Source of the DNA: Actomonas aquatica
GTDB lineage: Bacteria > Verrucomicrobiota > Verrucomicrobiia > Opitutales > Opitutaceae
Direction of reading: 5' to 3'
DNA: 64,000 nucleotides
Assembly: GCF_019679435.2 (NCBI RefSeq)
Contig: NZ_CP139781.1
Span: 2,480,001 to 2,544,000, forward strand
Positions within the stretch are counted from its first letter, which is position 1; each line of letters opens with the position of its first letter. Below, one piece after another: positions 11,302 to 42,707 of this stretch. Both the position numbers and the translations under genes were made by a program. The notes beneath the pieces were generated by a model. It did no database searches, was not told the origin of the DNA, and saw only the letters and a program-made list of their open reading frames with translations.

Positions 11302-14300
11302 GTGTCGATGCGCCCCCGTCCCACCCCCTCTCTGCTTCGCTCGAGCCTACCCTTGCTGGGAATGCTCGTCAGCGCAGCGATGGCGCCCGCCCAAACCGAC
11401 CGCACGTGGACAGGATCCAACGCCTCCCAAGATGATTGGAACCGCCGCCAAAACTGGTCTTCCAACAACGAACCAAACGGCTCCACCGAACGCGCCCGCT
11501 TCAACACCGACGGCCTGCTCACCAGCATCGAGGTCACGGCCGCCGACACCACCGGCGGCATCATCTTCACCAGCAACCTCTCCGATTCGATCACCTTCTA
11601 CGGTTCCGGCGACCTCACCCTGCTCAACACCTACGGGCTCAACACCGCCTCCGAGGGCACCCAGACCTTCTCCGTGCCGCTCTCCATCAGCAGCACCCAA
11701 ACCTGGTCCAACACCTCCACCTCCGGCTCCCTCATCCTCTCCGGCGGCATCAACCTCAACTCCGCCTCGCTCATCTTCCTGTCCAGCAACGCCGGAGCCG
11801 ACATCACCGCCGATAGCGTCATCTCCGGCACCGGCGGCCTCACCCAAAGCGGCTCGGGCACCCTCAATCTCTCCGGCATCAACACCTACGCCGGCTCCAC
11901 CAGCGTCTCCGCCGGCACGCTCTCCATCTCCTCCGCCAACGCCCTCGGCACCACCGGCTCCGGCACCACCGTCAGCTCCGGCGCCACCCTCGCCCTTGCC
12001 GGCTCCGGCACCACCTTCGCCGCCGAATCCCTGACCCTCAATGGCACCGGTGCCTCCGGCGCGGGCGCCCTCGCCAATACCAGCGGCAACAACACCTACA
12101 CCGGCAACATCAGCCTCGCTTCGGCCTCCACCGTCACCGTCGCCTCCGGCACCACCCTCACCACCACCGGCACCCTCTCCGGCACCGGCAACCTCACCAA
12201 ATCCGGCGCCGGTATCCTCGATCTCTCCAGCGGCAGCAACTCCTTCTCCGGCTCCACCACCGTCAGTGCCGGCACGCTCCGAGCCAGCGCCGCCGGCGCC
12301 CTCGGCAGCACCAGCGGCGTCACCGTCAACTCCGGCGGCACCCTCGCCCTCGCCACCTCCTCCGGCACCTACACCCCGTCCCTCACCCTCAACGGCACCG
12401 GCACCGCCAGCTCCGGCGCCCTCGCCAACACCACGGGCGCCAACACCTGGTCAGGCAACATCACCCTCGCCTCCAGCTCCTCGATCGACGTCGCCGCCGG
12501 CTCCTCCCTCGACCTCAGCGGCACCGTCTCCGGCAGCGCCGGCCTGACCAAATCCAGCACCGGCACCCTTACCCTCTCCGGCTCCAACTCCTACTCCGGG
12601 GCCACCACCATCAGCGCCGGCACCCTCATCGCCACCACCGACACCGCCCTCGGCACCTCCGCCGCTGGCACCACCGTCGCCAGCGGCGCGACCCTCCAGC
12701 TCGAGAACAACATCAGCATCACCGGCGAGGCTCTCACCAACAACGGCCAACTCACCAACGCCTCGGGCACCAATTCCTTCTCCGGCACCATCTCCGGCTC
12801 CGGCGATGTCCTCCTCAGCGGCGGCCAACTCACCCTCTCCGGCACCAACACTTTTTCCGGCGACGTCACCGTCAACTCCGGCTCCGTCCTCGTCGCCACC
12901 TCCGATGACGCCCTCGGCTCCGGCGGCGGCACCACCACCATCCAATCCGGCGGCACCCTCCAACTCACCGGCGGCATCGATGTCGACACCGAGACCGGCA
13001 TCACCCTCGCCGGCACCGGCACCTCCGGCCAGGGCGCCGTCCTTAGCTCCTCCGGCGACAACATCCTCGACTCCGTCTTCTCCCTTGCCGGTGACACCAC
13101 CATCTCCGCCACCGCCGACTCCCTCACCGTCGGCACCCAAGGCACCTCCCCCCTCTTTGAACTCAACGGCTACGACGTCACCTTCAACACCGACGGCGGC
13201 GACATCAACTTCGAGGCCGACTTCACCGACGCCGGCGACGTCTACAAAACCGGCTCCGGCACCCTCTCCCTCAATCACTCCGAAGCCTACCCCGTCCCGG
13301 TGCTCTCCGCCGATACCGACTTCTACCTCCAGGACGGCACCACCATCCTCAACACCTACAACAACGAAGACGTCGGCATTCTCGGCGACGTCGTGGTGGG
13401 TGACGGCATTGGTGCCGCCGGCTCCGCCGTCTTCCAGCAGGGTCACACCGAAAGCGGCAACGGTTACCTCTTCAATAACCTCATCTCCGACTCCTCCAAT
13501 ATCACCATCAACTCCGACGGTTACTGGGACCTCCAAGGCTACAAGGAGATCGTCAACGACGTCACCATGAACGGCGGCACCATCGAAGCCACCAATGGTT
13601 CCGGCACCGGCGACCGCCTCGACATCATCGGCACCCTCACGGCCACCGGCGGCACCACCGCCACCATCGAGGGCCGGCTCGGCATGAACAACGACACCGC
13701 CAAATCCATCGTCGTCGACTCCGGTGCCACCCTCGACATCAACGCCGTGCTCTCCAACGGCGGCTTCGACAAAACCGGCGACGGCACCCTCGTCCTCTCC
13801 GGCGCCAACTCCTTCACCGGCACCGCCAAGATCTCCGACGGCATCGTGCGCGTCGACAACGACTCCGGCCTCGGCGCTGTCGCCGGCGGCACCCAGGTCC
13901 TCTCCGGCGGTCAGCTCCAACTCGACGGCGTCACCATCGGTGCCGAGTCCCTCCAGATCGCCGGCTCCGGTCACAACAACGACGGCACCGGGGCCCTCCG
14001 CGCCCTCGCCGGCACCACCAACACCTGGGGCGGCAACGTGCTCATGACCGCCAACGCCCGCATCGTCACCGCCACCGGCGCCGACCTCACCATCGATGGC
14101 AACATCACCGGCTCCGGCACCACCCTCGACGTCGAGTCCATCGGCGACACCACCTTCAACGGTAACAACACTTTCAATACGCTCAACAAAACCGGCGCCG
14201 GCACCCTCACCGTCACCGGCAACAACACCTACGCCAACAACAACATCGACAGCGGCACCTACGCCCTCGGCGCGTCCAACATCCTCTCCGACACCATGGA

Positions 14301-15012
14301 TGTGAACCTCGGCGCCTCCGGCACCTTCAACGTCGGCTCCTACACCGACGTCATCGACGACCTCAACGGCAGCGGCACGCTCACCATCGCCTCCGGCGGC
14401 GACCTCACCATCGATCAGATCGGCAACAGCGGCGCCTTCACCGGCACCCTCAATATCGACGGCATCCTCACCCTCAACGGCGGCACCATCGGCGCAGCCG
14501 ACGGCTCGGCCTCCACCGGCACCATGGAGCTCACCGCCGGTAACACCCTCAACATCGTCGATGACTTCAACTTTGGTGGCACTCTCCTCCTCGCCGACAA
14601 TACCACGCTCAACCTCGTCAACGACGGCACCACCTTCGACCTCGGCACCCTCCGCGTCACCGGCGACAGCGTGATCGATTTCTCCGGCAGCGACGTCGGC
14701 ACCTTCAACATCGGCACCCTCGAGATCGACCTCGGCGGCACCATCTACGCCACCAGTTGGAACAGCTTCTACGACCTCTGGACCGCCACCAACTTCAACG
14801 GAGCCACGCTCGACGCGCGCAACAGCACCACCGCCCAAATCACCTTCGAAGGCTTCACCGCCTCCGACACCATCTGGCTCACCTACGACTACGGCGCCAA
14901 CGAGATCACCGTCCCCGAGCCCAGCACCTATGGCTTCCTGCTCATGAGCGCTCTCGGCGGCCTCTACGCCCTCCGTCGCAGAAAGCAGTCGAAGTCCAAA
15001 GTTGAAGCTTAA
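11302..15012 (+). CDS. Autotransporter-associated beta-strand repeat protein with PEP-CTERM signal
   Basis: Large exported, surface or matrix-type protein of unknown task. The 1,236 residues start with a signal peptide (SLLRSSLPLLGMLVSAAMA). The body is built of Gly/Ser/Thr-rich parallel-beta repeats of about 35-60 residues such as LTKSGAGILDLSSGSNSFSG, the autotransporter-associated strand repeat (PATR), from about residue 150 to 1150. No beta-barrel translocator follows; instead the end is a PEP-CTERM signal: VPEPSTYGFLL, a hydrophobic stretch, then RRRKQ. It would therefore be handled by an exosortase, not seen in this window. Start is GTG 11302 or ATG 11308. Codon choice is very uniform (GGC, ACC, CTC), which gives long spurious frames on the other strand. 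Confidence 0.9.
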   Translation: MSMRPRPTPSLLRSSLPLLGMLVSAAMAPAQTDRTWTGSNASQDDWNRRQNWSSNNEPNGSTERARFNTDGLLTSIEVTAADTTGGIIFTSNLSDSITFYGSGDLTLLNTYGLNTASEGTQTFSVPLSISSTQTWSNTSTSGSLILSGGINLNSASLIFLSSNAGADITADSVISGTGGLTQSGSGTLNLSGINTYAGSTSVSAGTLSISSANALGTTGSGTTVSSGATLALAGSGTTFAAESLTLNGTGASGAGALANTSGNNTYTGNISLASASTVTVASGTTLTTTGTLSGTGNLTKSGAGILDLSSGSNSFSGSTTVSAGTLRASAAGALGSTSGVTVNSGGTLALATSSGTYTPSLTLNGTGTASSGALANTTGANTWSGNITLASSSSIDVAAGSSLDLSGTVSGSAGLTKSSTGTLTLSGSNSYSGATTISAGTLIATTDTALGTSAAGTTVASGATLQLENNISITGEALTNNGQLTNASGTNSFSGTISGSGDVLLSGGQLTLSGTNTFSGDVTVNSGSVLVATSDDALGSGGGTTTIQSGGTLQLTGGIDVDTETGITLAGTGTSGQGAVLSSSGDNILDSVFSLAGDTTISATADSLTVGTQGTSPLFELNGYDVTFNTDGGDINFEADFTDAGDVYKTGSGTLSLNHSEAYPVPVLSADTDFYLQDGTTILNTYNNEDVGILGDVVVGDGIGAAGSAVFQQGHTESGNGYLFNNLISDSSNITINSDGYWDLQGYKEIVNDVTMNGGTIEATNGSGTGDRLDIIGTLTATGGTTATIEGRLGMNNDTAKSIVVDSGATLDINAVLSNGGFDKTGDGTLVLSGANSFTGTAKISDGIVRVDNDSGLGAVAGGTQVLSGGQLQLDGVTIGAESLQIAGSGHNNDGTGALRALAGTTNTWGGNVLMTANARIVTATGADLTIDGNITGSGTTLDVESIGDTTFNGNNTFNTLNKTGAGTLTVTGNNTYANNNIDSGTYALGASNILSDTMDVNLGASGTFNVGSYTDVIDDLNGSGTLTIASGGDLTIDQIGNSGAFTGTLNIDGILTLNGGTIGAADGSASTGTMELTAGNTLNIVDDFNFGGTLLLADNTTLNLVNDGTTFDLGTLRVTGDSVIDFSGSDVGTFNIGTLEIDLGGTIYATSWNSFYDLWTATNFNGATLDARNSTTAQITFEGFTASDTIWLTYDYGANEITVPEPSTYGFLLMSALGGLYALRRRKQSKSKVEA

Positions 15013-22101: not shown

Positions 22102-22860
22102 GTGACCTTCCCCGCCTATCTGCCCGTCGGTCCTTGGTCGCTTCACCCTCACGCGGTGTTTGAACCGCTCGCCTACTTCGTGGGCGCACGTCTCTACTTT
22201 TATCGTCGTCGGCGCGATGCCACCGCGCCACGTCTCCCGCTTGAGGCCACTCTTTGGCTCTTCATTGGCTGCATCTTCGGCGCCTGGGCTGGCTCCAAGG
22301 TCCTCGCATGGGTCGAGTCCCCCTCCCACTATTTCCCACTCGCCGCGGATCCGCGTTTGCTACTCGGAGGCAAGACGATCGCCGGCGGCATTCTCGGTGG
22401 CTGGCTGGGTATCGAGATCGCCAAACGGGCGCTGCACATCACGCACTCCACCGGCGATGCCTTTGTCTGGCCACTGGCCGTCGGCACGGCTCTCGGTCGC
22501 ATCGGTTGTTTTCTGTCCGGCCTGGAAGATCACACCTACGGCATCGCCACGGACCTGCCATGGGCCGTCGATTTTGGCGACGGCTTGTCCCGCCATCCCA
22601 CGCAACTCTACGAATCCACCGTCGTGCTGCTCCTGGCCGCCGGACTCACCGCTCTCTCCCATCGTGCCCGTCATCCCTGGACCTCCGGCATGAGCTTTCG
22701 CCTCTACGTGGGCGGTTATCTCTTTTGGCGACTGGGTGTCGAATTCCTCAAACCGCGGGAGACGTGGTTCTTGAACCTGAGCGCCATTCAACTCGCCAGC
22801 ATCGTCGGTATGATCATCGTGCTGGTGAGTCTGCGCCGCCTGGCCCGCGCGCCGACCTGA
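22102..22860 (+). CDS. Divergent Lgt-family membrane protein
   Basis: Integral membrane protein of the prolipoprotein diacylglyceryl transferase fold, but probably not a working Lgt. The 252 residues have about seven hydrophobic segments and family marks: GGKTIAGGILGG (89-100), ALGRIGCFLSG (130-140) and RHPTQLYES (164-172). In Lgt the HGG motif histidine and the RIGNF...E residues are important; here the positions are Ala94, Cys136 and no matching Glu (SGLED). This points to a changed substrate or chemistry. GTG 22102 follows the recQ stop; the longer frame is a shadow. The radical SAM gene starts 16 bases after its stop, so the two likely work together, perhaps on lipids. Confidence 0.78.
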   Translation: MTFPAYLPVGPWSLHPHAVFEPLAYFVGARLYFYRRRRDATAPRLPLEATLWLFIGCIFGAWAGSKVLAWVESPSHYFPLAADPRLLLGGKTIAGGILGGWLGIEIAKRALHITHSTGDAFVWPLAVGTALGRIGCFLSGLEDHTYGIATDLPWAVDFGDGLSRHPTQLYESTVVLLLAAGLTALSHRARHPWTSGMSFRLYVGGYLFWRLGVEFLKPRETWFLNLSAIQLASIVGMIIVLVSLRRLARAPT

Positions 22861-22875
22861 GCCACTCCCTCGCGC

Positions 22876-24285
22876 ATGGACCGCCCCTACCTTTTCGCCG
22901 AACTCACCAACAGCCTCTGCTCCCATTGCCTCGGCAAAGTGGAAGCCAAAATCATCTTCGAAGGCGACAGGGTGATGATGCACAAACACTGCCCGGAACA
23001 CGGCGCCGAGCGCGTGCTCATCTCGACCGACGTCGAATACTACCGGCGTTGCCGCACTACCCTCAAACCCGGGCAGATGCCCGACGTGTTCAACACGCCA
23101 ACTCGCTGGGGTTGTCCCTACGACTGCGGCCTCTGCCCCGACCACGAACAACACTCCTGCCTGTCGCTCGTGGAGGTCACCGATGCCTGTAACCTCCAAT
23201 GCCCGATCTGCTATGCCGAATCTTCACCACATCGGGTCACGCATCGTTCGCTCGAGCACATCGAACGCATGCTCGACGCCGTGGTGCGCAACGAAGCCGA
23301 GCCCGACATCGTGCAGATCAGCGGCGGTGAACCCACCGTCCACCCCGAGTTCTTCGCCATTCTCGACGCCGCCAAACGCCGCCCGATCAAGCACCTCATG
23401 CTGAACACCAACGGTGTGCGCATCGCCCGCGAACCCGACTTCGCCGCTCGCCTCGCCGACTACCAACCCGGCTTCGAAATCTACCTCCAGTTTGACTCAC
23501 TGCGACCCGACCCCATCAAAGCCCTGCGCGGCGCCGACCTGCTCGACGTGCGCCGACGCGCCCTCGACCGACTCAACGAACTCAATCTCTCCACCACACT
23601 GGTCGTCACCCTCAAGCGCGGCCTCAACGACGACGAAATGGGCGACATCGTCGACTTCGCGCTCCAGCAACCCTGCGTTCGCGGCGTCACCTTCCAGCCG
23701 ATCCAAGATGCCGGGCGCACCGAGGGATTTGATCCCGCCACCGATCGCCTGACCCTCGGCGGCGTGCGCCAGCAGTTCCTGCAACAGACTTCCGTCTTCG
23801 CCCCCGATGACATCATTCCGGTCCCCTGTCATCCCGACTGCCTCGCGATGGGTTACGCGCTCAAACTCGGCGACCAAGTCACGCCGCTCACCTCCCTCAT
23901 TCCGCCAGAGCTGCTCCTGAAAAGCGAAGGTTCGACCATCGTCTTTGAACAGCACCCACAATTGCGCGAAGAGGTGTTTAATCTGTTTTCCACCTCGCAC
24001 TCGCCCGAGTCTTCGGCCGCCGCCCTGCGCCAACTACTCTGCTGCCTGCCGCTGGTCGACGCACCGCCGACGCTGAGCTACAACAACATCTTTCGGGTGC
24101 TCTTCATCCAGTTTCTCGACGCCCACAACTTCGATGTCCGCAGCGTCAAAAAAAGCTGCATTCACATCGTGCATCCCGATGGACGTATCATTCCTTTCGA
24201 TACCTACAACCTCTTCTACCGCGACGACCGTTCCCACCAACTGGAAGCACTGCGACGCCGTCAATCCACCTCGGTTAAATCCTAA
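22876..24285 (+). CDS. Radical SAM protein, Tes/MJ0619-like family
   Basis: Iron-sulfur radical SAM enzyme. The canonical cluster motif is C105-N-L-Q-C109-P-I-C112. Upstream, extra cysteines are seen at C15/C18 (LCSHC), C39 and in GCPYDCGLCPDHEQHSC (C80, C84, C87, C95), and the C-terminus has FIQFLDAHNFDV and CIHIVHPDGRIIPF. This combination is characteristic of the family containing MJ0619 and the archaeal tetraether lipid synthase Tes, which joins or modifies alkyl chains. SAM-binding features QISGGEPTVHPEF are present. The 469-residue length fits. The chemistry in this bacterium is inferred only, but the coupled membrane Lgt-like protein supports a lipid substrate. Alternative: a cofactor or pterin methylase-type activity. 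Confidence 0.85.
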   Translation: MDRPYLFAELTNSLCSHCLGKVEAKIIFEGDRVMMHKHCPEHGAERVLISTDVEYYRRCRTTLKPGQMPDVFNTPTRWGCPYDCGLCPDHEQHSCLSLVEVTDACNLQCPICYAESSPHRVTHRSLEHIERMLDAVVRNEAEPDIVQISGGEPTVHPEFFAILDAAKRRPIKHLMLNTNGVRIAREPDFAARLADYQPGFEIYLQFDSLRPDPIKALRGADLLDVRRRALDRLNELNLSTTLVVTLKRGLNDDEMGDIVDFALQQPCVRGVTFQPIQDAGRTEGFDPATDRLTLGGVRQQFLQQTSVFAPDDIIPVPCHPDCLAMGYALKLGDQVTPLTSLIPPELLLKSEGSTIVFEQHPQLREEVFNLFSTSHSPESSAAALRQLLCCLPLVDAPPTLSYNNIFRVLFIQFLDAHNFDVRSVKKSCIHIVHPDGRIIPFDTYNLFYRDDRSHQLEALRRRQSTSVKS

Positions 24286-24343: not shown

Positions 24344-24655
24344 ATGGACACGCCTCCTGACCTTTCCGAAAAAGCCAAGCTTCAGCTCAATTCCGAGGTC
24401 GAGAAACTCAAACCTCGCGGCCTCGGCTGCGGCTCCATCATCGCCGGAGTCGCGATCGGTGGAGTTACCTGCGTTTTTTTCCTCGTGCTACTCGGAAAAC
24501 ACCTGGGTCTCGGGGCATTGATCCTCTCGCTGGCCATCGGGATCGCCTTAAGCGTGCCGCCCCGCACGCGTTATATCGGAATCGGTTTCATTCTAGCCAA
24601 CGGTTTGGCCCTGCTCGGTCTGGGTGTTTGCTTCAATATTCTGAAAGACCTCTGA
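24344..24655 (+). CDS. Small membrane protein (103 residues)
   Basis: Unknown function. After a short charged N-terminus (residues 1-25, KLQLNSEVEKLKPRG) come three hydrophobic segments: about 29-48, 53-68 and 77-98 (IGIGFILANGLALLGLGV). No recognised domain. It follows the radical SAM gene by 58 bases on the same strand and may belong to that operon. Confidence 0.6.
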   Translation: MDTPPDLSEKAKLQLNSEVEKLKPRGLGCGSIIAGVAIGGVTCVFFLVLLGKHLGLGALILSLAIGIALSVPPRTRYIGIGFILANGLALLGLGVCFNILKDL

Positions 24656-38828: not shown

Positions 38829-39902
38829 ATGCCGACCGCCGACCACGATTCTGATTCCACCTCCGCCCTCCGTGCGCTTTTCGCCGAACGCATCGCCGTG
38901 CTCGATGGCGCCATGGGTTCGGTCGTCCAGGGCTACGGCCTCAGTGAGGATGATTTTCGCGGAGAACGCTTTGCCGACCACCCGCAGGACCTGAAGGGCA
39001 ACAACGACCTGCTCTGCCTCACCCGGCCCGACATCGTGGAGGAGATCCACGCCCGCTACTTCGCCGCCGGGGCCGACATCGTGGAAACCAATACCTTCAG
39101 CGCCACCACCATCGGCCAGGCCGACTACGCGCTCGAGTCCGCCGTCACCGACATCAACACCGCCGCCGTCGCCTGTGCCCGCCGTGCCGCCACCGCCGCC
39201 GAAGCCGCCACGCCCGGCCGCCGCTGTTTTGTCGCCGGCGCCATGGGTCCGCTCAACCGCACCCTTTCGATGTCGCCCGACGTCAACCGCCCCGACTACC
39301 GCGCCGTGACTTGGGATCAGGTCGTCACCGCCTACACCGAACAGGTGCGTGCGCTCGTGGCCGCCGGCGTCGACGCCATTCTCGTCGAGACCATCTTCGA
39401 CACCCTCAACGCCAAGGCCGCGCTCTTCGCCCTCGAGACCGTGTTTGAGGAAACCGGCACCCGCCTGCCGGTCATGATCAGCGTCACCATCACCGACGCC
39501 TCCGGCCGCACCCTCTCCGGCCAAACCATCGCCGCCTTCTATCACTCCATCCGCCACGCCCGCCCCTTCAGCGTCGGCATCAACTGCGCACTCGGCGCCA
39601 AGGAAATGCGCCCCTACCTCGAAGAGCTCGCCGGCCTCGCCGAGTGCGCCGTCACGTGCTACCCCAACGCCGGCCTGCCCAACGCCTTCGGCGGTTACGA
39701 CGAGACGCCCGAACACATGGCCCACGACCTCGGAGGTTTCGCCAACGCCGGCCTCGTCAACCTCGTCGGCGGCTGCTGCGGCTCCACCCCCGACCACATC
39801 GCGGCCATCGCCAAGGCAGTCAAAACCCTGCCCGCCCGCGCCATCCCGCAACGCTCCAACGCCCTCCGCCTCTCCGGCCTCGAACCCCTCGTCGTGGCTT
39901 AA
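38829..39902 (+). CDS. metH: Methionine synthase part 1: homocysteine S-methyltransferase domain
   Basis: First of two genes that together make cobalamin-dependent methionine synthase. The 357-residue product carries only the homocysteine-binding barrel: [21 protein letters not shown] at the start, [15 protein letters not shown], and zinc-binding cysteines C253 (GINCALGA) and C316-C317 ([11 protein letters not shown]). In E. coli MetH this is the N-terminal third of one 1,227-residue chain. It ends 48 bases before the second part; the gap carries a simple repeat. Confidence 0.93.
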
Positions 39903-39910
39903 GCCACCCT

Positions 39911-39950
39911 GCCTACTCGCTACCCGCTACTCACTACTCGCTACTACTCA
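39911..39950 (+). repeat. Simple CTAC-rich repeat between the two methionine synthase genes
   Basis: Words of the type CTACTCGCTAC are repeated between the stop of part 1 (39902) and GTG 39951 of part 2. The tract lies where single-chain MetH has an interdomain linker, and so may mark the split. Confidence 0.5.
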
Positions 39951-42707
39951 GTGAACGCTGCCTCCTCTTTCCTCGTCGTCGGTGAACGCACCAACATCAC
40001 CGGCTCCCCCCGCTTCGCCAAACTGCTCAAGGCCGGCGATTGGGATGGCTGTCTCGCCATCGCCGCCCAACAGGTCGAAAACGGCGCCAATATCATCGAC
40101 ATCAATGTCGACGAGGCGCTCATCGACGGCGATGCGACCATGGTCAAGTTCCTCAACTTGATCGCCGCCGAGCCCGACATCGCCCGCGTGCCCATCATGC
40201 TCGATTCCTCGAAATGGAGCGTGCTCGAAGCCGGCCTCCAATGCCTCCAAGGCAAGGGCATCGTGAACTCCATCTCGCTCAAGGACGGCGAAGAGACCTT
40301 CCTGCAGCGCGCCCGCCTGCTCATGCGCTACGGCGCCGCCGCCGTCGTCATGGCCTTCGACGAGGACGGTCAGGCCGCCTCCCGCGATGACAAAGTGCGC
40401 ATCTGCACCCGCGCCTACCAACTCCTCACCGGCATCGGCTTCCCGCCCGAGGACATCATTTTCGACCCCAACATCCTCACCGTCGCCACCGGCATCGAGG
40501 AGCACAACAACTACGCCCAGGACTTCTTTCAGGCCACCCGCATCATCAAGGAAACCCTGCCCCACGCCAAGGTCTCCGGCGGCGTCTCCAACGTGTCGTT
40601 TTCGTTCCGCGGCAACAACCCGGTCCGCGAAGCGATGCACACGGCCTTCCTGTATCACGCCATCCGCGAAGGCATGGACATGGCCATCGTCAACGCCGGC
40701 ATGCTCGGCGTATACGACGAGATCGAGCCCACGCTGCGCGACCTCGTCGACGACGTGCTCCTCAACCGTAGCGACGACGCGACCGAGCGCCTCATCGAAC
40801 ACGCCGAAGCCCTCAAAGCCAGCGGCGCCAACAAGACTTCATCTTCAACTTCCAACCTAAACTCCGACGCGTGGCGCAAGCTCTCCGTCGAGGAGAGATT
40901 AAGCCACGCGTTGGTCAAAGGCATCGATACCTTCATCGAAGCCGACACCGAAGCCTGTCGCACCGACCCGCGATTCCCGCGCCCACTCGACATCATCGAG
41001 GGGCCGTTGATGGACGGCATGAAGGTCGTCGGCGACCTCTTCGGCGCCGGTAAGATGTTCCTGCCGCAGGTGGTCAAATCCGCCCGCGTGATGAAGAAAG
41101 CCGTCGCCTACCTCACCCCCTTCATGGAGGAGGAAAAAGCCCGCACCCTCGCCGCCGGTGGCACCGCCCGAACGCAGGGCAAATTTTTGATCGCGACCGT
41201 TAAGGGCGATGTCCACGACATCGGCAAAAACATCGTCGGCGTGGTGCTCGCGTGTAACAACTACGAGGTCGTCGACATGGGCGTGATGGTGCCCTGCGAC
41301 AAGATCCTCGCCAAAGCCAAGGAGATCGGCGCCGACGTCATCGGCCTCTCCGGTCTCATCACCCCGTCGCTCGATGAGATGGTGCACGTCGCCCAGGAGA
41401 TGAAGCGCACCGGCCTCGACGTCCCGTTGCTCGTCGGCGGCGCCACCACCAGCCTCGCCCACACCGCGGTCAAGATCGCGCCCGAATACGACCACGGCGT
41501 CGTGCACGTCCTCGACGCCTCGCGCGTCGTCAACGTCGTCAGCGCCCTGCTCAGCGACACGCAAAAGCCGGTCTTCCTCGCCGAAAACACGACCAAGCAG
41601 GACAAACAGCGCGCCGACTTCGCCGCCCGCCAAAACCGCAAACCCCTGCTCCCCTACGCCACCGCCCGGACACGCGCGCAGACCTTCGATTGGGACGACG
41701 TCGACATCCCCACGCCGGCGTTCCTCGGCACGAAAACCTTCGGGAGCGATCAGCGGTCAGCGATCAGCTCTCAGCTGCCCCAAGCACCAAAAGCTGACAG
41801 CCGACCGCTGAACACTGAGAGCTTCGACGGCGAAGCCATCCGCCTCGAGGACATCATCCCCTACATCGACTGGCGGCCGTTCTTCTCCACGTGGGAACTG
41901 CATGGTCGCTTCCCCGACATCCTCACCGACGAGGTCGTCGGCACCGAAGCCACCAAACTCTATGCCGACGCCCGCGCCATGCTTGATCGCATCGTGGCCG
42001 AGCAACGTTTCCGCCCGCGCGCTATCATGGGTTTCTACCTCGCCAACGCCGTGGGCGATTCCGTGGAAATCTACCGCGACGACTCGCGTAACGAGGTTCT
42101 GGATACTTTCCACTTCCTCCGCCAGCAACAGCCCAAGCCCGACGGCCAGTCCAATCACTGCCTCGCCGACTTCATCGCGCCGCGCCACAGCGGTCGGCTC
42201 GACTACCTCGGTGGTTTCGCGGTCACCGCCGGTCCGGAAGTCGAAGCCTGGTCGGCCGAATTCAAAGCCGCCGGCGACGACTACAACGCCATCATGGTGC
42301 AGGCCCTCGGCGACCGCATCGCCGAAGCCATGGCCGAGCTCTGCCACAAAAAGGCCCGCGACTTCGCCGGCTTCGGCCAAAGCGAGACACTGACGATGGA
42401 CGAAGTCATCCGGGAAAAGTATCGCAGCATCCGCCCCGCGCCGGGTTATCCGGCCTGCCCCGATCACACTCAGAAGCGTCAGCTTTGGCAGCTCATGGAC
42501 GTCGAGGCCGCGACCGGCATCGCGCTCACCGAAAGCTGCGCCATGACGCCGGGCAGCAGCGTGAGCGGCTTCTACTTCGCGCATCCAGATTCCAAATACT
42601 TCGCCATCGGCCGCCTCGGCAAAGACCAGGTCACCGACTACGCCGACCGCAGCGGCCGACCGCTCGCCGAAGTCGAGAAGTGGCTCGGACCGTATCTGGA
42701 TTATTGA
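39951..42707 (+). CDS. metH: Methionine synthase part 2: folate, cobalamin and activation domains
   Basis: The 918-residue product has the pterin (methyltetrahydrofolate) barrel ([20 protein letters not shown]), the helical cap, the cobalamin-binding Rossmann domain with the D-X-H-X-X-G motif (GDVHDIGKN, lower-axial ligand H422), and the C-terminal activation domain ([36 protein letters not shown]). Start GTG 39951. Between the cobalamin and activation domains is an extra linker of about 26 residues (41743-41821) derived from a palindromic repeat, translated in frame. All catalytic motifs are intact, so a two-chain enzyme is likely functional. Confidence 0.94.
41743..41821 (+). repeat. Palindromic repeat inserted in frame within the second metH gene
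   Basis: CAGCGGTC (41751-41758) pairs with GACCGCTG (41803-41810), and TCAGCT (41771-41776) with AGCTGA (41792-41797). The unit adds a linker (peptide [14 protein letters not shown]...) without breaking the frame. Confidence 0.7.

Follow-up and report, generated by a model that had tools for sequence, protein, structure and literature searches.

A cassette of a Tes-like radical SAM protein, an Lgt-like membrane protein and small helix-plus-cysteine membrane proteins in Actomonas aquatica and distant bacteria

What is a relative of Tes, the enzyme joining lipid chains in archaea, doing in a bacterium, next to a relative of the lipoprotein enzyme Lgt? The question is raised by a stretch of 64,000 nucleotides, here called the window, of Actomonas aquatica (contig NZ_CP139781.1, positions 2,480,001 to 2,544,000), whose genome is a single contig of 6.1 Mb. 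Two genes found in the window, encoding an Lgt-like integral membrane protein and a protein of the radical S-adenosylmethionine superfamily (radical SAM, rSAM), had been singled out in an earlier note, made from the sequence alone, as possible partners in the synthesis of an unusual membrane lipid or in the modification of a lipid-linked substrate. Both open reading frames (ORFs) are found in the same orientation and at the boundaries reported there, but stop and start are separated by 15 bases, and not by 16. The pair recurs in distant bacteria, and small membrane proteins carrying a cysteine at the end of a transmembrane (TM) helix, on which the earlier note is silent, are a third part of the same cassette.

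Six aligned rSAM proteins were used to scan 84,980 species genomes. At least 571 relatives were found, and the best 80, 58-71% identical to the window rSAM over the best segment, were analysed. By record title they are distributed in 12 phylum-level groups, Bacteroidota (25) and Bacillota (24) being the most frequent. An Lgt-like gene is found on the same strand in 71 of these 80 loci. It is located upstream, at 1.5 kb or less, in 68 of the 71, and in 58 its stop lies -40 to +100 bases from the first aligned rSAM residue. The association supposed in the earlier note is conserved far beyond chance at distant loci, and a functional link between the two proteins is supported. Several of the nine loci that lack an Lgt-like gene are at or near contig ends. 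A strong Lgt-like match, by score and not by residues, is present elsewhere in seven of the nine genomes (E 1.6e-99 to 3.2e-50, one being cut at a contig end), and no Lgt-like match was found anywhere in the other two. Other gene families recurring at the 80 loci, shadow frames excluded, are found in at most 10 of them, and are generic by eye (ABC-transporter, response-regulator and similar). A chance operon with the recQ-like gene located upstream in the window was discarded, a RecQ-like ORF being found in 1 of 80 loci, more than 3 kb from the rSAM gene. A close copy was detected in 3 of 57 genomes of relatives (G000, included in the count, G029 and G031), and in none of seven genomes of the same genus, two of which are incomplete. 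This patchy distribution suggests horizontal spread or frequent loss. Carriage by viruses was rejected, no close relatives being found in a search of viral contigs.

The rSAM protein contains the Pfam radical SAM core and HMPTM zinc ribbon domains, and has no predicted membrane segment. Its assignment to the Tes family in the earlier note was not upheld by profile searches. By curated cut-offs the protein does not qualify as Tes or TrsS, as it scores 277 bits against NCBIfam Tes (equivalog cut-off 450) and 319 bits against TrsS (NF045646; cut-off 490), which is the best-scoring curated family. Only one strong sequence relative, Tes, is found in solved structures (E 3e-66, the next being 5e-4), and the fold matches Tes entry 7tol with E 4e-38 and TM-score 0.78, the next match other than Tes having E 2e-10. 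In the tree of rSAM proteins the row of Methanocaldococcus jannaschii Tes is placed together with a haloarchaeal protein, apart from the clade of the window protein, a weak placement given the long branches and the partial Tes row; the nearest named relative is a Verrucomicrobiota assembly.

Metal ligands and motifs of Tes, as given in PMC9433317, were compared with residue conservation in 70 aligned proteins, the window rSAM and 69 of the 80 relatives. The rubredoxin-type site C15/C18/C39/H42, spaced as the C-X2-C-X20-C-X2-H of Tes, the N-terminal [Fe4S4] site C80/C84/C87/H90 (C-X3-C-X2-C plus His) and the SAM cluster C105/C109/C112 (CX3CX2C), three of the four metal sites of Tes, are invariant in all 70. 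Equally invariant are C318, C389, C390 and C428, candidate ligands of a C-terminal cluster, in a model in which residues 348-397 have a predicted local distance difference test score (pLDDT) below 50. Since the C-terminal ligands of Tes differ, a cluster held by other ligands is possible. C322 was rejected as a ligand, being a cysteine in just 31 of 70 proteins. In the alignment, Met439 and Tyr459 of Tes are both replaced by Ile in the window protein, Cys455 by Ser and Cys470 by Asp. At the Tyr459 position, the 70 proteins have I (67), M (2) or F (1). Met439, a ligand of the C-terminal cluster, and Tyr459 are conserved in 1,000 archaeal homologues, and the M439A and Y459F/L variants of Tes are still active (PMC9433317); the loss of both residues is therefore compatible with Tes-like chemistry. 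The additional block of cysteines and the FLDAHNFD...PDGRIIPF end, previously described as typical of Tes, are present and align with 7TOL, but rSAM relatives that likewise fall short of the Tes cut-off have a similar end.

The Lgt-like protein is a member of Pfam LGT (PF01790; 95.8 bits, cut-off 24.9, E 3.4e-27), and falls under the NCBIfam lgt equivalog cut-offs (best 54.9 bits vs 334; TIGR00544 41.3 vs 118.9). Its AlphaFold model has pLDDT 94.3, and E. coli Lgt (5azb; E 3.6e-7, TM-score 0.64) is the only fold match in PDB at E <= 0.001. The genome also encodes a canonical Lgt at another place (207.9 bits, vs 95.4 for the Lgt-like protein). A pseudogene or broken copy was considered and rejected, the frame being open and the fold model confident.

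Window residues R133, C136, Y206, R210, E214 and K217 are the counterparts of R143, N146, Y235, R239, E243 and R246 in E. coli Lgt; A94 is the counterpart of H103, and the Y26 position is occupied by His. The RHPTQLYE motif, the RIGC replacing RIGN and the Ala at the HGG histidine had been correctly read from the sequence, the Ala being private to the window copy; the reported lack of a matching Glu depends on the alignment, as an acidic pair (ED) adjoins that position. In 74 aligned Lgt-like proteins, window included, R143, G154, Y235 and R239 are always kept, and N146 is always replaced by Cys. H103 is never kept, the position being V, L, I or M in 73 proteins and Ala in the window copy alone; Y26 is replaced by His in 71 of 74. 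R143 and R239 have been assigned to the catalytic pocket that takes the phospholipid, H103 to a proposed lipobox-peptide site (PMC4728403). As judged from these positions, the active site retains its phospholipid side, and its acceptor side has changed.

E. coli Lgt requires Y26, H103, R143, N146, G154 and R239, and N146C has been described from distant Lgts and from the M. smegmatis protein MSMEG_5408 (PMC13251419). The change of three required residues, and the invariance of the cysteine at N146 (74/74), would fit a protein that is no transferase, in which Cys136 pairs with the small-protein cysteine in a membrane complex served by the rSAM protein. Such a redox or stability role is improbable. 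Cys at N146 is also found in other Lgts, most of the inspected ones having Tyr at 103 (cf. PMC13251419), and is hence no mark of function loss; R143, G154, Y235 and R239 are, moreover, invariant. N146C could be read in 29 of the 30 best Lgt matches in 387 genomes of the phylum, and the thirtieth, the L037 gene, has Cys by alignment; RIGC was thus rejected as a mark of the system. Ten of these best 30 matches, to which the reciprocal check was limited, have neither His nor an aromatic residue at position 103, and all are within the 13 of the 387 genomes with an rSAM match of E 1e-25 or better. The pair is unlinked in two of these genomes, with 334 kb between the genes in G360 and different contigs in G319. 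In an eleventh rSAM genome, G397, the neighbouring Lgt-like gene is a more distant one, and the remaining two, G106 and G386, have other neighbours in the stretch viewed. FYGG or YYGG is visible in 18 of the 20 other Lgts, vs FHGG in E. coli. Lgts of the phylum other than those of the cassette (L155, L160, L161, L163-L179) feature GC..GCC(Y/F)G in place of E. coli GN..GE, possibly denoting cysteine chemistry or a metal site in Lgt.

Small ORFs with TM segments are found after the rSAM stop, between the two genes, or before the Lgt-like gene. In the small window protein, Cys96 ends the last TM segment (GLALLGLGVCFNILKDL; context GLALLGLGVC96FNILKDL), and C43 is at the end of the first. The 80 loci were scanned strictly for ORFs in which a Cys ends a hydrophobic stretch preceded by K or R. 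On the cassette strand 74 such ORFs were found, in 59 of the loci (0.63 per kb), vs 5 on the opposite strand beside the cassette (0.04 per kb) and 26 on the same strand further out (0.047 per kb). In a separate test, 78 cassette loci (the window, L007, L008 and 75 of the 80, five having too little sequence) were viewed at the rSAM stop, and 51 of them have an ORF of this type there, vs 6 of 535 stops of other long ORFs. Among small ORFs with at least two TM segments, a helix-end Cys is present in 69 of 81 beside the cassette vs 18 of 77 far away, a 3.7-fold excess. The excess is 1.4- to 2-fold for the other residues monitored (S 66/81 vs 44/77; T 52 vs 26; G 78 vs 37; A 74 vs 45). All these ratios are drawn from related loci, which are not independent samples, and by criteria shaped after examples seen.

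The small proteins, one to three per locus and up to three in tandem, share little besides the helix-plus-Cys module. The cysteine is in the second half of the protein in 60 of 69 ORFs, usually after the last helix, and after the first helix in several Acidobacteriota (SLGLCG) and in L137. The position of the Cys therefore shifts, while the module persists. The consensus is G/L, N/F, A/S/G and then a varied residue before the Cys, F/G and then G after it. N-terminal parts vary, being proline-rich, zinc-ribbon-like by eye, or short. Zinc-ribbon-like N-termini were seen at L058:7208-8749 (three in a row), L084:3897-4166 and L094:3792-4274, where Pfam scores are under cut-offs. Tails following the Cys may end in His (NFH, GFH), as in L090, L091, L112, L121 and L128, among others, and His is present in 18 of 68 short tails. 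None of 17 small proteins compared with Pfam, 10 of which were compared also with NCBIfam, exceeded the cut-off of a curated family. The small window protein likewise has no Pfam or NCBIfam match above cut-off.

Charges around the Cys helix are asymmetric. In the 69 ORFs, taken from a scan with no charge rule, the mean net charge is +1.80 before the helix and +0.25 after it, and is higher before in 57, equal in 6, lower in 6. According to the positive-inside rule, the more positive flank of a TM helix stays inside; the Cys is thus predicted to lie outside, the side faced by the active site of Lgt. That the Lgt active site faces the outer side of the membrane is described in PMC4728403.

These features point to the conserved cysteine of the small protein as what probably gets modified. 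The reading preferred here, tentatively and at somewhat less than even chance, is that of a dedicated lipidation cassette, in which the rSAM protein alters a phospholipid tail and the Lgt-like enzyme loads the lipid onto the cysteine. The 5'-deoxyadenosyl radical produced by the rSAM protein would act on the tail to form a C-C or C-S bond, and the Lgt-like enzyme would then move the diacylglyceryl part of the altered lipid, by a putative thioether, to the Cys at the outer end of the TM helix. The association of an Lgt with a conserved phospholipid side, a predicted outer-face cysteine in co-encoded tiny proteins and an enzyme with the Tes fold suggests small proteins loaded with a radical-modified lipid. 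Since the rSAM protein lacks a membrane segment and the Cys is predicted outside, a radical step on the lipid preceding the transfer is favoured. A broader version is more doubtful. The cassette would represent a distinct bacterial pathway for lipidating proteins, itself horizontally mobile, in which the Tes-fold rSAM makes a chain-coupled or sulfur-bearing lipid and the Lgt offshoot attaches it to the outer helix-end Cys of the tiny proteins, one to three in number. The product would be a radical-tailored lipoprotein that is not cleaved.

The substrates of Tes are free lipids, and the retention of phospholipid-handling residues in the Lgt-like enzyme would equally suit the synthesis of a free unusual lipid, e.g. 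a chain-coupled or thiolated phospholipid, by the two enzymes, small proteins being structural helpers or sensors. Five Paenibacillaceae species have homologues of both Mss and Ger (PMC13274423), and membrane-spanning lipids are thinkable there. This alternative is nonetheless rather unlikely, as tandem small proteins sharing little but the helix-plus-Cys module resemble substrates. To our knowledge, moreover, membrane-spanning lipids have not been reported from Paenibacillus, Chitinophaga or Flavobacterium. The presence in the cassette of tandem tiny Cys membrane proteins points to a protein as the thing modified; of the proposals of the earlier note, the functional link is supported and a lipid or lipid-linked substrate remains the most likely type, but membrane-spanning lipid made in bulk is not the most probable product.

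One to three small proteins beside an rSAM protein with auxiliary clusters also recall ribosomally synthesized and post-translationally modified peptides (RiPPs). SuiB and the RiPP maturase SkfB are fold hits 3 to 7, behind two Tes entries, and entry 5v1t is entitled as SuiB bound to its precursor peptide. The rSAM protein might accordingly modify the small protein itself, by forming a C-C or thioether bond close to the Cys, the Lgt-like protein presenting or lipidating it. The fold match is, however, far stronger to Tes than to SuiB or SkfB (E 4e-38 vs 2e-10), and conserved residues are located at the outer helix end, beyond the reach of a cytosolic enzyme after insertion. Direct modification of the small protein is thus judged unlikely.

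Several points weigh against the lipidation cassette. E. coli-required Y26, H103 and N146 are all changed in the Lgt-like protein, and its transfer activity is therefore not assured. The rSAM protein does not preserve the C-terminal cluster of Tes at the level of single residues, and part of that region (348-397, pLDDT below 50) is modelled at low confidence. With the Cys outside and an rSAM protein devoid of TM segments, the rSAM product would need to be a lipid that flips, or else the order of the steps differs. Small Cys proteins were not found in 21 of 80 loci by the strict scan, some of these being contig ends or near misses, and 14 of 80 loci remain without them in a looser union of scans that includes some spurious ORFs. 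Small ORFs beside the cassette are generally more hydrophobic, and because of this S, T, G and A helix ends are commoner too. In the usual lipobox G, A or S precedes the Cys. The residue preceding it in the 69 ORFs (A 19, T 12, L 11, I 10, V 6, S 4, G 4, others in the rest) fits in 27, and is V in the window protein. Finally, what is well supported is the cassette itself, with its spread, the residues kept and lost and the charges around the Cys helix; the small protein as substrate, the thioether and the action of the radical on the lipid are inferred.

An Lgt-family gene and, by eye, small Cys proteins also adjoin more remote rSAM clades of the phylum and one carried by a Mycobacterium branderi plasmid. 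No small Cys protein was found in the stretches viewed in G360 and G319. Relatives on Haloarcula and Mycolicibacterium plasmids are accompanied by an annotated methyltransferase, with no Lgt in view, and the same holds, by eye, for two genomes of the same phylum. A TrsS/Tes-like rSAM precedes a methyltransferase in L130 and L131, where the latter is annotated, and in L144 (holding L009) and L147, where it was assigned by eye. An rSAM gene with a methyltransferase and no Lgt-like gene in view is a different system of the same superfamily. In one distant genus, an ICMT/PEMT-family membrane protein is encoded between the rSAM and Lgt-like genes (L134:5353-5955, L135:5590-6246 (-)), and is possibly another lipid- or cysteine-directed enzyme of the cassette.

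Features of the window locus are listed in Table 1. No Rfam elements were detected at gathering scores within the 64-kb window. A methionine-synthase-like gene, recognized by eye at 38829-42707 (+), is split in two same-frame ORFs of 357 and 918 amino acids by one in-frame stop, which is followed by 16 open codons before the next start. A long repetitive protein is encoded at 11302-15012 (+); by eye it features autotransporter-like repeats and a PEP-CTERM-like end (PEPSTYGFLLMSALGGLYALRRRK).

Table 1. Coordinates of the cassette features in the window
Feature	Position	Strand	Remarks
Lgt-like integral membrane protein	22102..22860	+	252 amino acids, GTG start
Tes/TrsS-superfamily radical SAM (rSAM) protein	22876..24285	+	469 amino acids
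Small 3-TM membrane protein, candidate substrate	24344..24655	+	103 amino acids; starts 58 bases after rSAM
Cys96 codon of the small protein, proposed modified cysteine	24629..24631	+	Profile of 69 cassette-linked ORFs from other genomes

No description of the rSAM/Lgt-like pair or of the small proteins was found in the open-licence literature searched, which does not prove that none exists. Each part is of a type already known; what is new, as far as seen, is how they are combined and the probable substrate. Bacterial homologues of Tes, 456 of which were retrieved in PMC8941075, are used as hints to the makers of tetraether-like lipids, which serve as paleoclimate proxies; their proposed activity is unconfirmed according to PMC11868695. 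Through the cassette, a partner enzyme and a candidate substrate, a protein, can be assigned to a large group of Tes-like proteins, and Tes-like genes in such bacteria need not therefore mean tetraether lipids. Their role becomes testable in ordinary laboratory species, the cassette being present in, e.g., Paenibacillus chitinolyticus, Chitinophaga niastensis and Mucilaginibacter gilvus. Should the small proteins be lipidated, the cassette would provide a second, radical-assisted lipoprotein pathway.

Known systems resemble single parts of the cassette. The rSAM protein is similar to Tes (GDGT-MAS, MJ0619, 7TOL/7TOM) in fold over most of the length, in the rubredoxin-type site, in the N-terminal [Fe4S4] site with its His and in the SAM cluster; it differs in the invariant C318, C389 and C390 and in having Lgt-like and small-protein partners. 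Tes binds two phospholipids and abstracts H from the tail end; when SAM is limiting it yields a sulfur-bearing lipid, taken by the authors as evidence of a substrate-cluster intermediate (PMC9433317). TrsS is matched over nearly the whole length, but no methyltransferase follows the window rSAM, unlike in L130, L131, L009 and L147. Mss is a bacterial enzyme of lipid-chain coupling, in which the catalytic architecture of Tes is said to persist; the available part of PMC13274423 mentions neither an Lgt-like partner nor a small-protein one, in a comparison made by description. The Lgt-like protein shares with Lgt (PF01790, 5AZB) family, fold, RHPxQLYE and the R143, G154, Y235, R239 and E243 positions, and differs by Y26H, N146C and R246K and by having neither His nor an aromatic residue at 103. 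In the non-canonical lipobox lipidation predicted for Skillet-1 Lipocone proteins, a lipobox-like motif and a dedicated phospholipid-acting enzyme have likewise been proposed in place of Lgt, but the acceptor is a serine and the enzyme belongs to another superfamily (PMC12419801, in the text of which the term 'radical SAM' does not occur).

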